From contig JANXNW010000281.1 in NCBI GenBank assembly GCA_025353905.1, positions 1 to 64,000 on the forward strand: a stretch of 64,000 nucleotides of DNA. Reading direction: 5' to 3'. Positions 6,156 through 50,832 of this stretch are shown one piece after another (the stretch's first letter is position 1; the number at the start of each line of letters is the position of its first letter). Source of the stretch: Hymenobacter sp. GTDB lineage: Bacteria > Bacteroidota > Bacteroidia > Cytophagales > Hymenobacteraceae. The notes beneath the pieces were generated by a model that saw only the letters and a list, made by a program, of their open reading frames with translations, searched no databases and was not told the DNA's origin. Both the position numbers and the translations under genes were made by a program.

Positions 6156-6180
6156 TATGCCGTCCAAGGAGGCTTCTTCG

Positions 6181-6280
6181 CTTGATTTTACTAAGACCTG
6201 AGACGTTGGACATGAGACGCTCGCCAGACGCTCGCCGAGAAAGTCTCAGGTTTAACGTCTCAGGTTTTAGTAAAATCAAG
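6181..6280. repeat. Long inverted repeat between convergent genes
   Basis: Arms 6181-6207 and 6254-6280 are complementary at 26 of 27 positions. The interior consists of words around CATGAGACG, CTCGCC and GTCTCAGG. The TGA stop of coaE on the minus strand falls inside the right arm. Confidence 0.9.
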
Positions 6281-6895
6281 CGACTTTTCCGCTACTTCAC
6301 CACCTCGCCGGATGGCCGCGTCCAGGGCCAGCACCTGGGGCAGCACGAGCTGCGAGTCGTCGTTGTAAACGACATACGTGGCGCGGCGCACCTTTTCGTC
6401 GTCATCGAGCTGCCGGGCCATGATGGCTTGCACGTCGGCGGCTGAGCGCTGCGGGTCGCGGCGCAGCACCCGCGCCTGCCTCATTGCCGCCGGGGCCCAC
6501 ACCGTGATGACGGCATCCAGGCCCCGGTCGATGTTGGCTTCGAAAAGCAAAGCGGCCTCTTTGAGTACGTACGGCTGGCCGGCGGCCGCCTGTTGGCTCG
6601 CCCAGGCGGCAAAGTCCGCGCCTACTCGCGGATGCACCAGCTCGTTGAGCCAGGCCAGCTGGGTGGGATTGTTGAAAGCGACCCGCGCCAGATAAGCCCG
6701 GTCGAGCTGCCCGGCCGCATCATACGTTGCCAGCCCAAATGCGGCCGTGAGCTGTTCGCGCAGGGCCGGGTCGTGGGCCATGAGCCACTTGGCCCGGCTG
6801 TCCGAATCATACACCGGCACCCCAAGCGCGGCAAATACCCGCGCCACCACGCTCTTGCCCGAGCCAATGCCGCCAGTGATGCCGATGAGAAGCAT
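6260..6895 (-). CDS. coaE: Dephospho-CoA kinase CoaE
   Basis: A 211-residue protein that phosphorylates the ribose 3'-OH of dephospho-CoA, the last step of coenzyme A synthesis, in the cytosol. The P-loop GITGGIGSGKS is at residues 5-15. VYDSDSRAKWLM follows, as in CoaE, where this Asp binds substrate. LVHPRVGADF and EAALLFEANIDRGLD are the expected core motifs of the family. Length is normal. It lies at the 3' end of the nusB/DUF1573/yajC/ybbR neighbourhood, a common Bacteroidota order, but is separated from ybbR by a ~200 bp nested inverted repeat. The last codons (ACT AAA ACC TGA) are part of the inverted repeat shared with the convergent gene, so the repeat supplies the C-terminal Thr-Lys-Thr and the stop. 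Confidence 0.95.
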   Translation of the reverse strand: MLLIGITGGIGSGKSVVARVFAALGVPVYDSDSRAKWLMAHDPALREQLTAAFGLATYDAAGQLDRAYLARVAFNNPTQLAWLNELVHPRVGADFAAWASQQAAAGQPYVLKEAALLFEANIDRGLDAVITVWAPAAMRQARVLRRDPQRSAADVQAIMARQLDDDEKVRRATYVVYNDDSQLVLPQVLALDAAIRRGGEVAEKSLDFTKT

Positions 6896-6896
6896 A

Positions 6897-7101
6897 GTGT
6901 TAGTGATTAGTGATTAATGATTAGTGATTAATGGTCATATGACTTACGCAACGCGTCCGTCATTGCGAGCGCAGCGAAGCAATCGCCCCTGTCAAGCATG
7001 TTCGACGAGCCGAACAACGAGCCGAATAGGTGTAATTGCTTCGCTACGCTCGCAATGACGAACGAGAAATTGACCACTAACCACTAACCATTAATCACTT
7101 A
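6897..7101. repeat. Nested double inverted repeat between ybbR-like gene and coaE
   Basis: Outer arms are built from GATTAGTGATTAATG words (about 6903-6936) and the complementary ACCACTAACCATTAATCAC words (about 7072-7100). Inside is a second pair: 6958-6983 (CATTGCGAGCGCAGCGAAGC) against 7034-7059 (GCTTCGCTACGCTCGCAATG). The stop codon of the ybbR-like gene (AGTGATTAA) is part of the outer right arm. Confidence 0.9.
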
Positions 7102-7558
7102 CTGAGTCGGCTGGCGGGGTGCCCGGGCCGGGCGTCAGGTAGAACGAGGCGGAGTCGTCGGGCAGGCTTAGCAGGCGTACGCCGCCCAGAGCGCGGCGCA
7201 ACGGGGGCCGCAGCGGCGAGCGTAGCGGCGGGGTGCCGGGCAGGCGCAGGTGCACTTCGGCCGGGGGCAGGTGCAGACCCAGCGCCCGGCTCAGCAGTCG
7301 CCAGCCCGCGCCGCGCACCTGCACCAGCACGGTGGGCGGCAGCGGCCGGGCGGGGTGGTAGCGTTGGGCGTTGTAGCGCCAGCTCACCGGATATTCGAGC
7401 GGCGCGGTGTAGCTCCGGCTCAGGGCGTGCAGCAGCCACAGCGTACTGGCGATGAGCAGGCAAATGCCCACGGCCCGGTAGTAGCTTGGGGTTCGCCCAA
7501 CAAGCGGCCGCAGCAGGCGGCGCAGCAGCGCGCCGCCAGTAGTTCGGGCGGGCCTCAC
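7091..7558 (-). CDS. Short YbbR-like domain protein
   Basis: A 155-residue protein if read from GTG at 7558, 4 nt after the yajC stop. A longer frame to 7699 exists but would overlap yajC deeply. One membrane segment (about 25-42, AVGICLLIASTLWLLHAL) is followed by a single YbbR-like repeat (PLEYPVSWRYNAQRY ... PTVLVQVRGAGWRLLSRALG). YbbR/CdaR proteins are membrane-anchored with several such repeats on the outer face, and Bacteroidota versions are usually about twice this long, so this one appears shortened. Context (DUF1573-yajC-ybbR-coaE) supports the call. Role in Bacteroidota is unclear; in Firmicutes CdaR regulates a diadenylate cyclase, not seen here. The stop codon lies in a repeat. 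Confidence 0.7.
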   Translation of the reverse strand: MRPARTTGGALLRRLLRPLVGRTPSYYRAVGICLLIASTLWLLHALSRSYTAPLEYPVSWRYNAQRYHPARPLPPTVLVQVRGAGWRLLSRALGLHLPPAEVHLRLPGTPPLRSPLRPPLRRALGGVRLLSLPDDSASFYLTPGPGTPPADSVSD

Positions 7559-11163: not shown

Positions 11164-11287
11164 GGTTTCAGTTGTTAGTTGCCAGTTGTCAGTTGTTAGT
11201 TGCCAGTTGTTAGTTATTTTGTGTTGTTAGCTCTTGTTTAGTGAAAGCGAAAATCTGACAACTGACAACCAACAACTGACAACTAAA
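11164..11287. repeat. Inverted word repeat between leucine dehydrogenase and nusB
   Basis: Left arm of CAGTTGTTAGTTGC words (11168-11212), right arm of CTGACAACTGACAACC words (11256-11287). Fills the entire gap. The dehydrogenase stop TAG is in TTAGTTGTCAGTTG on the minus strand. Confidence 0.92.
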
Positions 11288-12611: not shown

Positions 12612-14414
12612 ATGCCCACCCGCGCCCTCGCTGCCGTCAATCCGCACATTTACCGCTACAAGTGGCACTTTCTCGGTGGCGTTTTATTCGTGATTCTGAG
12701 CACCTTGCTCACCATCTTCCCGGCCCAGCTCGTGCGCTACGCCTTCGACCTCGTGAGTGAAGGCATCGACCTCTACAAGCTCTACGCCGGCACTCAGGCC
12801 CAGAGCGGCGTGTACGAGCTGTTCGGGCGCAACGTGCTGTTCTACGGCGTGTTGATTATTCTGCTGGCCCTGTTGCGGGGCATTTTTCTGTTCTTCATGC
12901 GCCAGACGCTCATCGTCATGTCGCGGCTAATTGAGAACGACCAGAAAAATCAAATCTATAAGCATTACCAGTCCCTGCCACTGAGCTTCTACCGCCGCCA
13001 TTCCACGGGCGACCTCATGTCGCGCATCTCCGAGGACGTGGGCCGAGTGCGGATGTACCTCGGGCCGGCCATCATGTACTTTTTGCAGCTCGTGCTCATG
13101 TTCGTGCTCGTGCTGCCGCTCATGCTCGTCGTCAATGTCAAACTGACCTTGCTCACGCTCTTGCCGCTGCCGATTCTCTCGGTCAGCATCTTCTATGTCA
13201 ATAACTTAATCGAGCGTAAGTCCGACGAGATTCAGAAGGCGCTGGCCGCTATGACGACCTTTACGCAAGAAGCGTTTTCGGGCATTCGGGTGCTCAAATC
13301 GTTCGTGCGGCAGCAGGACTCGGCCCAGCGCTTCGAGGCCGCCAGCGACGAGTACAAGGACAAGTCGCTGAGCCTGAACTTCGTCAATTCGCTGTTTTTC
13401 CCGCTCATCCTGTTTCTCATCGGGCTGAGCACGATTACCACCGTCTGGATTGGCGGTCAGGAAGTTATTCGGGGCACCATCACCACGGGCAGCATCGCCG
13501 AGTTCATCATCTACGTGAACCTGCTCACCTGGCCCGTCACGGCCCTGGGCTGGACCAGCTCGCTCGTGCAGCGGGCCGAAGCCTCGCAGGCCCGCATCAA
13601 CGAGTTTCTGGACGAGAAAACCGACATCGTCTCGCGCCAAAACGTCGAGCGCGTCATCGAAGGCGACATCGTGTTCGACAACGTGACTTTCACTTATCCA
13701 GACACCGGTATTCAGGCCTTGCGCGACGTCAGCTTTCGCGTGCGACCGGGGCAGACGCTGGCCGTCATCGGCAACACCGGCTCGGGCAAGAGTACCATCG
13801 CCGCGCTGCTCTGCCGGCTCTACGACGTGACGAGCGGCGCCATCAGCGTGGACGGCGTGGACGTGCGTGACTACGCTTTAACGTCTCTGCGTGAGCAGAT
13901 TGGCTACGTGCCGCAGGACGTGTTTTTGTTTTCCGACACCATCCGCCAAAACATCAACTTTGGCCTCGACCAGCCCGACGAGGCACGCATGGCCCAGGCC
14001 GCCCGCGACGCGGACGTGTACGACAACATCGAGCGCTTCCCGGAGGGGTTCGACACCAAAGTGGGCGAGCGCGGCATCACGCTCTCGGGCGGGCAGAAGC
14101 AGCGCGTGAGCATGGCCCGCGCGCTGGTCAAAGAACCCAAAATCCTGATTCTCGACGACTCGCTCTCGGCCGTGGACACCAAAACCGAGAACGCCATCCT
14201 CGGCGCGCTGCAGCGCGTGATGCTCAACCGCACCAGCCTCATCATCTCGCACCGCGTCTCGTCGGTCAAGCTCGCCGACGAAATCCTGGTCCTCGACGAC
14301 GGCCAAATCGTGCAGCACGGCACCCACGCCGCCCTGCTCGCCGACCAGAACGGCCTGTACCGGGCGCTGTATGAGCGGCAGTTGCAAGCCGAACCGGTTA
14401 TCAATGAACAATGA
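12612..14414 (+). CDS. ABC exporter, fused transmembrane and ATPase domains (MsbA/MDR type)
   Basis: A 600-residue half-transporter. The transmembrane domain (about 1-320) shows strong hydrophobic segments (WHFLGGVLFVILSTLLTIF, VLIILLALLRGIFLFFM, ILFLIGLSTITTVWI) and the STGDLMSRISEDV motif of type-1 exporters. The nucleotide-binding domain has Walker A GNTGSGKST (about 387), Q-loop GYVPQDVFLFSDTI, signature LSGGQKQRVSMARAL (about 490), Walker B ILILDDSLSAVD and switch ISHRVSS. The residue after the Walker B Asp is Asp rather than the usual catalytic Glu, as in degenerate sites of some heterodimeric exporters, but here the homodimer would have only this site. Substrate unknown. The final codons (GTT ATC AAT GAA CAA TGA) are made of the repeat words that follow. 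Confidence 0.92.
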   Translation: MPTRALAAVNPHIYRYKWHFLGGVLFVILSTLLTIFPAQLVRYAFDLVSEGIDLYKLYAGTQAQSGVYELFGRNVLFYGVLIILLALLRGIFLFFMRQTLIVMSRLIENDQKNQIYKHYQSLPLSFYRRHSTGDLMSRISEDVGRVRMYLGPAIMYFLQLVLMFVLVLPLMLVVNVKLTLLTLLPLPILSVSIFYVNNLIERKSDEIQKALAAMTTFTQEAFSGIRVLKSFVRQQDSAQRFEAASDEYKDKSLSLNFVNSLFFPLILFLIGLSTITTVWIGGQEVIRGTITTGSIAEFIIYVNLLTWPVTALGWTSSLVQRAEASQARINEFLDEKTDIVSRQNVERVIEGDIVFDNVTFTYPDTGIQALRDVSFRVRPGQTLAVIGNTGSGKSTIAALLCRLYDVTSGAISVDGVDVRDYALTSLREQIGYVPQDVFLFSDTIRQNINFGLDQPDEARMAQAARDADVYDNIERFPEGFDTKVGERGITLSGGQKQRVSMARALVKEPKILILDDSLSAVDTKTENAILGALQRVMLNRTSLIISHRVSSVKLADEILVLDDGQIVQHGTHAALLADQNGLYRALYERQLQAEPVINEQ

Positions 14415-14488
14415 GCAATTATCAATGAACAATGCCTACCAACACCTCCTCTGCAATTGCTCATTGCTCATTGATAATTGCTCACTGA
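14399..14488. repeat. Inverted word repeat between convergent genes
   Basis: Left arm 14399-14432 (ATCAATGAACAATGAGC words), right arm 14452-14487 (GCAATTGCTCATTGCTC, GATAATTGCTCACTG). Supplies the last residues and stop of the ABC exporter. The same words recur at 24.4, 46.1 and 61.7 kb. Confidence 0.92.
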
Positions 14489-24413: not shown

Positions 24414-24488
24414 TCAATGAGCAATTATTAATGAACAATGCTCATCAGCCGTAACAGGTAATTGTTCATTGATAATTGCTCATTGAAA
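24414..24488. repeat. Inverted word repeat after the DUF2795 gene
   Basis: Left arm TCAATGAGCAATTATTAATG (24415-24440), right arm TAATTGTTCATTGATAATTG and CTCATTG (24462-24486). Same words as 14.4 and 46.1 kb. Between co-directional genes. Confidence 0.9.
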
Positions 24489-46093: not shown

Positions 46094-46190
46094 GCAATGA
46101 GCAATGAGCAATTATCAATGAGCAATTCAGTTTTGACTACTTGGAGTCTGCTTTGAATTGTTCATTGTTCATTGTTCATTGCTCATTGAT
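46093..46190. repeat. Inverted word repeat between convergent genes
   Basis: Left words GAGCAATGAGCAATTATC, AATGAGCAATTC (46092-46130), right words GAATTGTTCATTGTTC, ATTGTTCATTGCTCATTG (46155-46189). Supplies the stop of the small membrane protein (AATCAATGA on the minus strand) and touches the stop of the oxidoreductase. Confidence 0.92.
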
Positions 46191-47824: not shown

Positions 47825-48919
47825 ATGGACCTTGCATCTCAACCGCACCGCCGCTACAACCCGCTGCTCGACGAGTGGGTGCTTGTGTCGCCGCACCGGG
47901 CCAAGCGGCCCTGGCAGGGGCAGCAGGAAACGAGCGAGGTCGAAGTTCGGCCCGCTTACGACCCGACCTGCTACCTCTGCCCCGGCAACGCCCGCACGAG
48001 CGGCGCGGTGAATGATAAATATGAGCATCAGTTTGTGTTCGACAACGACTTTGCGGCCCTGTTGCCGGAAGAAGTGAAGAGTGAAGAGTTAAGAGTTGAG
48101 AGTGTGGTACCTGCTGAGGGTCCAATTCTTCATCCTTCACTCTTAACTTATAACTTCCTCCGGGCCGAAGCCGAAACCGGGCGCTGCCGGGTCATCTGCT
48201 TTTCGCCCCGCCACGACCTGACCTTGCCCGAAATGCCGGTCAGCGAAATTCGGCGGGTGGTGGATGTCTGGACCGACGAGTATCGGATGCTGGGCGCGGA
48301 CCCGGCCATCAACTACGTGCAGATATTCGAGAACAAGGGCTTTGTGATGGGTTGCTCGAACCCGCACCCGCACGGCCAGATTTGGAGCGAGCGCACCGTG
48401 CCCGATTTGCCGGCCCGCGAAACCCGTGCCCAGCGCGCGTATTTCGAGCAGTACGGCCGCTCGCTGCTGGCCGACTACCTGGCTTTGGAGGAAAAAACCA
48501 AAGTCCGCTTTGTGGTTGAAAACGCCACCTGGGTGGCGCTGGTGCCCTTCTGGGCGGTCTGGCCCTTCGAGACGCTCGTGCTGCCGCGCCGCGCTGTACA
48601 AGACCTCACCCAGCTCAGCGAAGCTGAGCGCGACGGGCTGGCCGACATCATCAGCCAGCTCACTATCCGCTACGACAACCTGTTCGAAATCAGCTTCCCG
48701 TACTCGGCTGGCCTGCACCAGCGCCCGACCGACGGGGCCGAATACCCGGAATGGACCTTGCACCTGCACTTTTTGCCGCCGCTGCTGCGCTCGGCTACGG
48801 TCAAAAAATTCATGGTCGGCTACGAATTATTGGCCAATGCCCAGCGCGACATCACCCCCGAGCAAGCCGCCGAACGCCTGCGGGCGCTGCCGGCCGTGCA
48901 TTATAAAGTTGGTGCTTAG
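47825..48919 (+). CDS. galT: Galactose-1-phosphate uridylyltransferase GalT with an in-frame repeat insertion
   Basis: A 364-residue enzyme transferring UMP between UDP-glucose and galactose-1-phosphate. Start [20 protein letters not shown], zinc-binding CYLCPGNAR, catalytic [12 protein letters not shown] with HPH (His as nucleophile), then [20 protein letters not shown] and LHQRPTDG. Between DFAALLPEE and [13 protein letters not shown], where homologues have a short variable loop, lie about 30 residues ([22 protein letters not shown]) encoded by an inverted word repeat at 48068-48160. The frame is kept, so the enzyme may well be active with an enlarged loop. The stop is in the repeat that follows (GGTGCTTAGTGC). 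Confidence 0.95.
48068..48160. repeat. Inverted word repeat inside galT coding sequence
   Basis: Left words GAAGTGAAGAGTGAAGAG, TTAAGAGTTGAGAG (48070-48103), right words TTCTTCATCCTTCACTC, TTAACTTATAACTTCC (48126-48157), partly complementary. Same architecture as the intergenic elements but translated in frame. Confidence 0.9.
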
Positions 48920-49044
48920 TGCTTAGTGCTTGGTCTATTCAATGAAACCAAGCACCAAGCACCAAGCACTAAGCACCAAGCACTAAGCTTCATGCACTAA
49001 GCACCAAGCACTAAGCACCAAGCACTAAGCACCAAGCACTAAAA
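48912..49044. repeat. Dense word-repeat array between convergent galT and an outer-membrane-like gene
   Basis: Two to three GTGCTTAGTGCTTGG words (48912-48933) on the left and about ten complementary CAAGCACCAAGCACTAAG words (48944-49042) on the right. Contains the stop codons of both flanking genes. Confidence 0.93.
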
Positions 49045-49875: not shown

Positions 49876-49931
49876 GTGCGGTAGGCTTCAGCCTGCCATC
49901 CTAGCAGACGGCAGGCTGAAGCCTACCGCAC
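49876..49931. repeat. Perfect 22-bp inverted repeat between co-directional genes
   Basis: GTGCGGTAGGCTTCAGCC plus TGCC (49876-49897) and its exact complement (49910-49931), 12-nt loop. It lies 7 nt beyond the stop of the LytTR regulator gene, so it could terminate that transcript, though no T-run follows. Confidence 0.93.
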
Positions 49932-50754: not shown

Positions 50755-50832
50755 GTAGCGCGCAGCCTTTGCTGCGCGGGTAAGGTGAGAAAAATCGGCC
50801 CCGCAACGCACGCAGCAAAGGCTGCGCGCTAC
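50755..50832. repeat. Perfect 22-bp inverted repeat in the gap between kinase and regulator genes
   Basis: GTAGCGCGCAGCCTTTGC plus TGCG (50755-50776) and its exact complement (50811-50832). The kinase stop TAG is inside the right arm; the regulator ATG is 3 nt beyond the left arm. Confidence 0.93.

Follow-up and report, generated by a model that had tools for sequence, protein, structure and literature searches.

Anatomy of a nested palindrome beside coaE in Hymenobacter and the turnover of hairpins in gene gaps

Organization of the coaE gap

The window is a 64,000-nt stretch of DNA from a Hymenobacter MAG of 4.14 Mb. This assembly comprises 435 contigs, with 82% completeness and 5.5% contamination, and about 10% of it was read, as stretches. 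The gap between coaE and the gene upstream of it is filled by a three-layer palindrome composed of heptamer arms, a terminal-repeat half on the left side only, and a 101-bp core. The features are as follows:

6260 to 6895, minus strand: coaE (dephospho-CoA kinase; PF01121, E = 4.8e-45; TIGR00152), the downstream neighbour of the composite
6900 to 6937, no strand assigned: left outer arm, tandem heptamers GTGATTA / ATGATTA / ATGGTCA, with the complementary part at 6909 to 6937
6940 to 6958, plus strand: terminal-repeat half, TGACTTACGCAACGCGTCC, consensus GGACTTACGCAAAGCGTCC; its right-side partner is missing
6959 to 7059, no strand assigned: inner core, a 101-bp inverted repeat, GTCATTGCGAGCGCAGCGAAGCAATC...ATTGCTTCGCTACGCTCGCAATGAC, of a CGTC-type REP-dimer-like family
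7060 to 7070, no strand assigned: unpaired right spacer, GAACGAGAAAT, the expected place of the right terminal-repeat half
7071 to 7099, no strand assigned: right outer arm, made of heptamers that pair with the left arm
7091 to 7558, minus strand: upstream gene, unnamed (ybbR is a working label only)

On the minus strand the ATG of coaE comes right after the left outer arm, and the right outer arm contains the last codons and the TAA stop of the upstream gene, for which Pfam and NCBIfam searches returned no match. The inverted repeat within an inverted repeat that the sequence-only reading had described at 6897–7101 is present, both members lying where it had placed them. The outer arms (6909–6937 and 7071–7099) are 29 nt long, 90% complementary and 133 nt apart, and the inner arms (6954–6990 and 7028–7064) are 37 nt long, 86% complementary and 37 nt apart. 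Folded as a single DNA strand, 6897–7107 reaches −55 kcal/mol, compared with a mean of −23.3 for shuffled sequences (z = −10.2; 0 of 200 shuffles as stable), and the outer-flank complementarity score of 21.5 exceeds the maximum of 13.5 among 5000 shuffles. The transcript strand folds at −112 kcal/mol, and unpaired spacers of 22 and 12 nt separate the heptamer arms from the core in this copy. Rfam 15 covariance models run against the window matched two tRNAs only, the composite having no RNA-family match. We regard this anatomy as solid; the mechanism proposed below is one that we infer.

The core, the terminal repeat and the heptamer arms

About 40 places in the same genome matched a 221-nt query in which the window's arms were included, and the core copies described here were drawn by similarity to this query. 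The core repeat measures 89–114 nt, mostly 101, runs head-to-head and starts with NGTCATTGCGAGC; its copies are 75–97% alike, and a related core match occurs in 74 of 120 genomes of the genus. Every aligned copy is an inverted (head-to-head) dimer and intergenic, with 20 copies in co-directional gaps, 8 in convergent gaps and 1 in a divergent gap. The family thereby resembles the CGTC-tagged REP superfamily (Di Nocera et al. 2013, PMC3733652), which is likewise intergenic, multicopy, arranged as head-to-head dimers and located downstream of genes; part of the core ends also show the CGTC or TGTC start followed by AT. The terminal tag of that superfamily is CGTC, with TGTC or CCTC as variants. 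The resemblance is incomplete. At the 76 ends of 38 core copies GGTC (26) is as common as CGTC (28), with TGTC at 9 and AGTC at 8, unlike in the CGTC REPs, and the core monomer folds as a stem of 5 bp plus 2 bp, in contrast to their stem of 8–9 bp with a loop of 4–5. Given the variable tag and the shorter monomer stem, we call the core REP-like and do not assign it to the CGTC REPs.

CGTC-tagged REPs have no dedicated transposase (PMC3733652), and we found none for the Hymenobacter core. Palindromes adjoin two Y1_Tnp (RAYT-like) genes (L221 1243–1788 and L222 1315–1836) and are not of the ATTGC core type, which flanks neither of these two genes; at L222, a GTCATGCTGAGC-type hairpin lies upstream of the gene neighbouring Y1_Tnp. 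Palindromic dimers that end in GTAG or nearly so, resembling GTAG REPs, are also present in the window at 49876–49931 and 50755–50832. Literature searches on the core sequence and on Hymenobacter heptamers yielded nothing direct.

The layer at 6940–6958, which the sequence-only reading had missed, corresponds to one of the terminal repeats of an IS701-family insertion sequence. There are 37 occurrences of this repeat, GGACTTACGCA, in the genome and 0 in the reversed control, and it bounds a 1.06-kb element (L223 1–1066) whose protein scores 338.8 bits for IS701 transposase (cut-off 250). Several contigs stop inside or beside this element, so the insertion sequence probably broke the assembly. 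The same terminal repeat ends short MITE-like palindromes, some of which enclose REP pieces, and TA flanks, a possible target-site duplication, are seen at some short MITE copies only. In G079, at nagB, a REP lies within the same terminal-repeat arms (L277). The motif stands beside 5 of 38 core copies. Both halves are found at L003, L007 and L008; the window site shares GGACTTACGCA with the 1.06-kb insertion sequence, as an IS701-family MITE does, and keeps one half, on the left.

The outer arms had been read as a fixed 15-mer and prove instead to be tandem heptamers (GTGATTA, ATGATTA, ATGGTTA). We surveyed heptamers in 1.24 Mb from the same genome and two close species pairs. Tandem 7-nt units occur in intergenic DNA, the RTGRTTA class giving 45 matches in the genome of the window and 0 in the control. 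Among arms with at least three tandem units, period 7 was found in 18 hairpins and in 0 shuffles, and other periods reached at most 4. About 23 different heptamer words occur in 27 hairpins; words vary by locus, and the two arms of one locus match. Several core copies have the GTGCTTA or GTGATTA word class in common. The left and right flanks of one and the same copy show a complementarity of 13.2, compared with 6.7 when the flanks come from different copies, all drawn with the arm-containing query, and in 14 of 40 core copies flank complementarity exceeds the 99th percentile. Heptamer hairpins lacking a core are common (median loop 27 nt), as are cores lacking heptamer arms, and in many core copies, unlike most hairpins that lack a core, the arms run directly into the core stem with no leftover loop. 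Six more heptamer-arm hairpins occupy gene gaps of the window (6178–6283, 11184–11284, 14412–14484, 24414–24486, 46095–46188 and 48909–48979), with the words GACATGA, GTTGTCA, CAATGAG and GTGCTTA. Stop triplets are somewhat enriched in 5′ arms (0.097 per position vs 0.072 in shuffles, p = 0.0002); this small effect is confounded by word structure, and we claim no stop-codon role for it.

Among long simple repeats, heptanucleotide units form the most frequent class in many bacteria (see the discussion in PMC4679880). A close likeness is to the 70–75 heptameric inverted-repeat pairs of Xanthomonas, built on GGGAATC, which are also tandem heptamers on facing strands in intergenic DNA (PMC4692102). 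Xanthomonas, however, is described as having one word type per genome, whereas Hymenobacter has many words, locus-matched arms and cores nested inside. The locus-specific words, with no single consensus, likewise distinguish these outer palindromes from those of the CGTC REPs (PMC3733652).

Hairpin turnover at orthologous gaps

The window composite is absent from all related-species sites that we checked at the coaE gap, the window's own coaE falling on a long, unplaced branch. Relatives carry heptamer-only hairpins with other words at four loci (L065, L067, L068 and L071), a REP-like element alone at L070, and no hairpin at L066, L079 and L081. The sequence-only reading had proposed to look for strains with outer-only or inner-only elements; in related species both kinds of layer occur alone at this site, and the gap differs among them rather than holding an unchanged composite. 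The ispE gap behaves similarly. Composites with different words and REP types are present in the genome of the window and in G081, among them a second composite (L248) whose words and REP type differ; G079, G028 and G084 have heptamers only, and G104 has a REP only.

Many gaps in close species pairs hold unrelated hairpins at the same position, as does the gap upstream of nusB in G010/G083, where the slot is the same and the hairpin different. With homologous hairpins removed, slot sharing over three pairs gave a Mantel-Haenszel OR of 3.7 (p = 0.0004), the G071/G087 pair showing none by itself (OR 1.1). In that pair one slot (L303–L322) has the REP stem ATGCA/TGCAT in one species and ATTGC/GCAAT in the other, between flanking proteins 96–98% identical. 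Orthologous sites near trpB, accD, a MOSC gene, serC and nagB, which have mixed or rearranged neighbourhoods, were left out of these counts. Hairpins occupy 36 of 38 convergent vs 4 of 53 divergent orthologous gaps. The earlier suggestion that gene gaps are preferred targets therefore holds for some gaps, because hairpins avoid divergent ones, and gap orientation accounts for part of the slot reuse.

Paired arm changes and competing explanations

Orthologous hairpins have changed at both sides of a base pair 20 times vs 3.6 expected, and 15 of these changes keep pairing. One gap of G010/G083 differs by an indel of 15 nt, CGGCATTAACCATTA, that is exactly the opposite arm in reverse complement, while the flanks and the loop are almost unchanged. 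Among 76 indels overall, an inverted template at p<0.01 exists for 5, compared with about 0.8 expected; a second mirrored indel, of 7 nt (CGTTAGC, one mismatch), is not significant alone. Template switching creates and repairs hairpin stems, and such quasipalindrome mutation likewise predicts matched multi-base changes in both arms (PMC8794818, PMC7202029). The published cases concern RNA genes and E. coli reporters, whereas in Hymenobacter we propose it for dispersed intergenic hairpins. Selection, or the exchange of a whole hairpin for another, can also give rise to paired changes.

We propose, at about even confidence, that the composite occupies a post-stop hairpin slot in which REP/MITE insertions and heptamer slippage act as seeds and template switching keeps the arms matched. 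The core would consist of two CGTC-type REP-like repeats joined head-to-head, accompanied on its left side by what appears to be the remnant of an IS701-type MITE arm. Both layers were probably inserted into gaps downstream of genes, where palindromes may be tolerated or useful, perhaps in a terminator-like role at mRNA 3′ ends. The heptamer arms are probably not an inserted element and most likely grew through slippage in steps of 7 nt, starting from the base of a palindrome already in place. Template switching during replication would copy one arm onto the other, so that each locus could have its own words yet matched arms, and the whole stem could be exchanged for another hairpin while its position stays. 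The sequence-only reading had suggested successive insertion at one site. For the REP and MITE layers this appears to be correct in part, since the layers occur separately at the coaE and ispE gaps; it finds no support for an outer element conceived as a fixed-sequence mobile unit, the heptamer arms being better explained as locally grown and mirrored. Against slippage and template switching we count that a clean mirrored copy is seen in a single indel, and that the unpaired spacers of the window copy fit plain insertion into a loop.

Such an insertion is the first alternative: a MITE carrying a REP dimer would have entered the loop of a standing heptamer hairpin and later lost its right end. 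Besides the spacers, it would account for the MITE half that lies on the left, between the outer arm and the core, and for the heptamer-only hairpins at the coaE slot of relatives, and it has parallels in the short MITE copies with a REP piece inside and in the REP dimers found within palindromes of Anabaena, Thermomicrobium and Halothiobacillus (PMC3733652). We nonetheless consider it unlikely, though not strongly so: the arms of many other copies join the core with no leftover loop and have different words, the ispE composites lack the loop present in heptamer-only relatives, and a target duplication is not readable at the window site.

Selection at the RNA level, by which a strong post-stop hairpin would be retained because it terminates transcription or stabilises mRNA 3′ ends, with compensatory mutations matching the arms, would suit the scarcity of hairpins in divergent gaps, the retention of slots whose sequence changes and the stable fold of the transcript strand. 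It seems improbable, however, as sense-strand G.U and A.C mismatches occur in near-equal numbers (67 against 64), which speaks for a DNA-level process, and RNA-level selection alone leaves period 7 and the long matched blocks unexplained. We reject a single mobile unit with heptamer arms as its ends as highly improbable, because arm words differ among copies with similar cores and the arms form no conserved terminus, even though several copies share a word class.

The nested structure is real and part of a genus-wide pattern. Extending slippage and template switching to that pattern, we tentatively suggest, while leaning somewhat against so general a statement, that Hymenobacter gene gaps may contain self-renewing hairpin slots whose position is inherited and whose sequence is rewritten by these two processes, with REP and MITE elements serving solely to seed or replace a hairpin. 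Across the genus, gene gaps carry interchangeable hairpins whose arms change together, which provides a natural test of how long palindromes originate and persist in bacterial chromosomes, including REP-like ones that keep near-perfect stems with no obvious transposase: since both arms change at once in orthologous slots of close Hymenobacter species, template switching, insertion and selection can be separated by ordinary strain sequencing.
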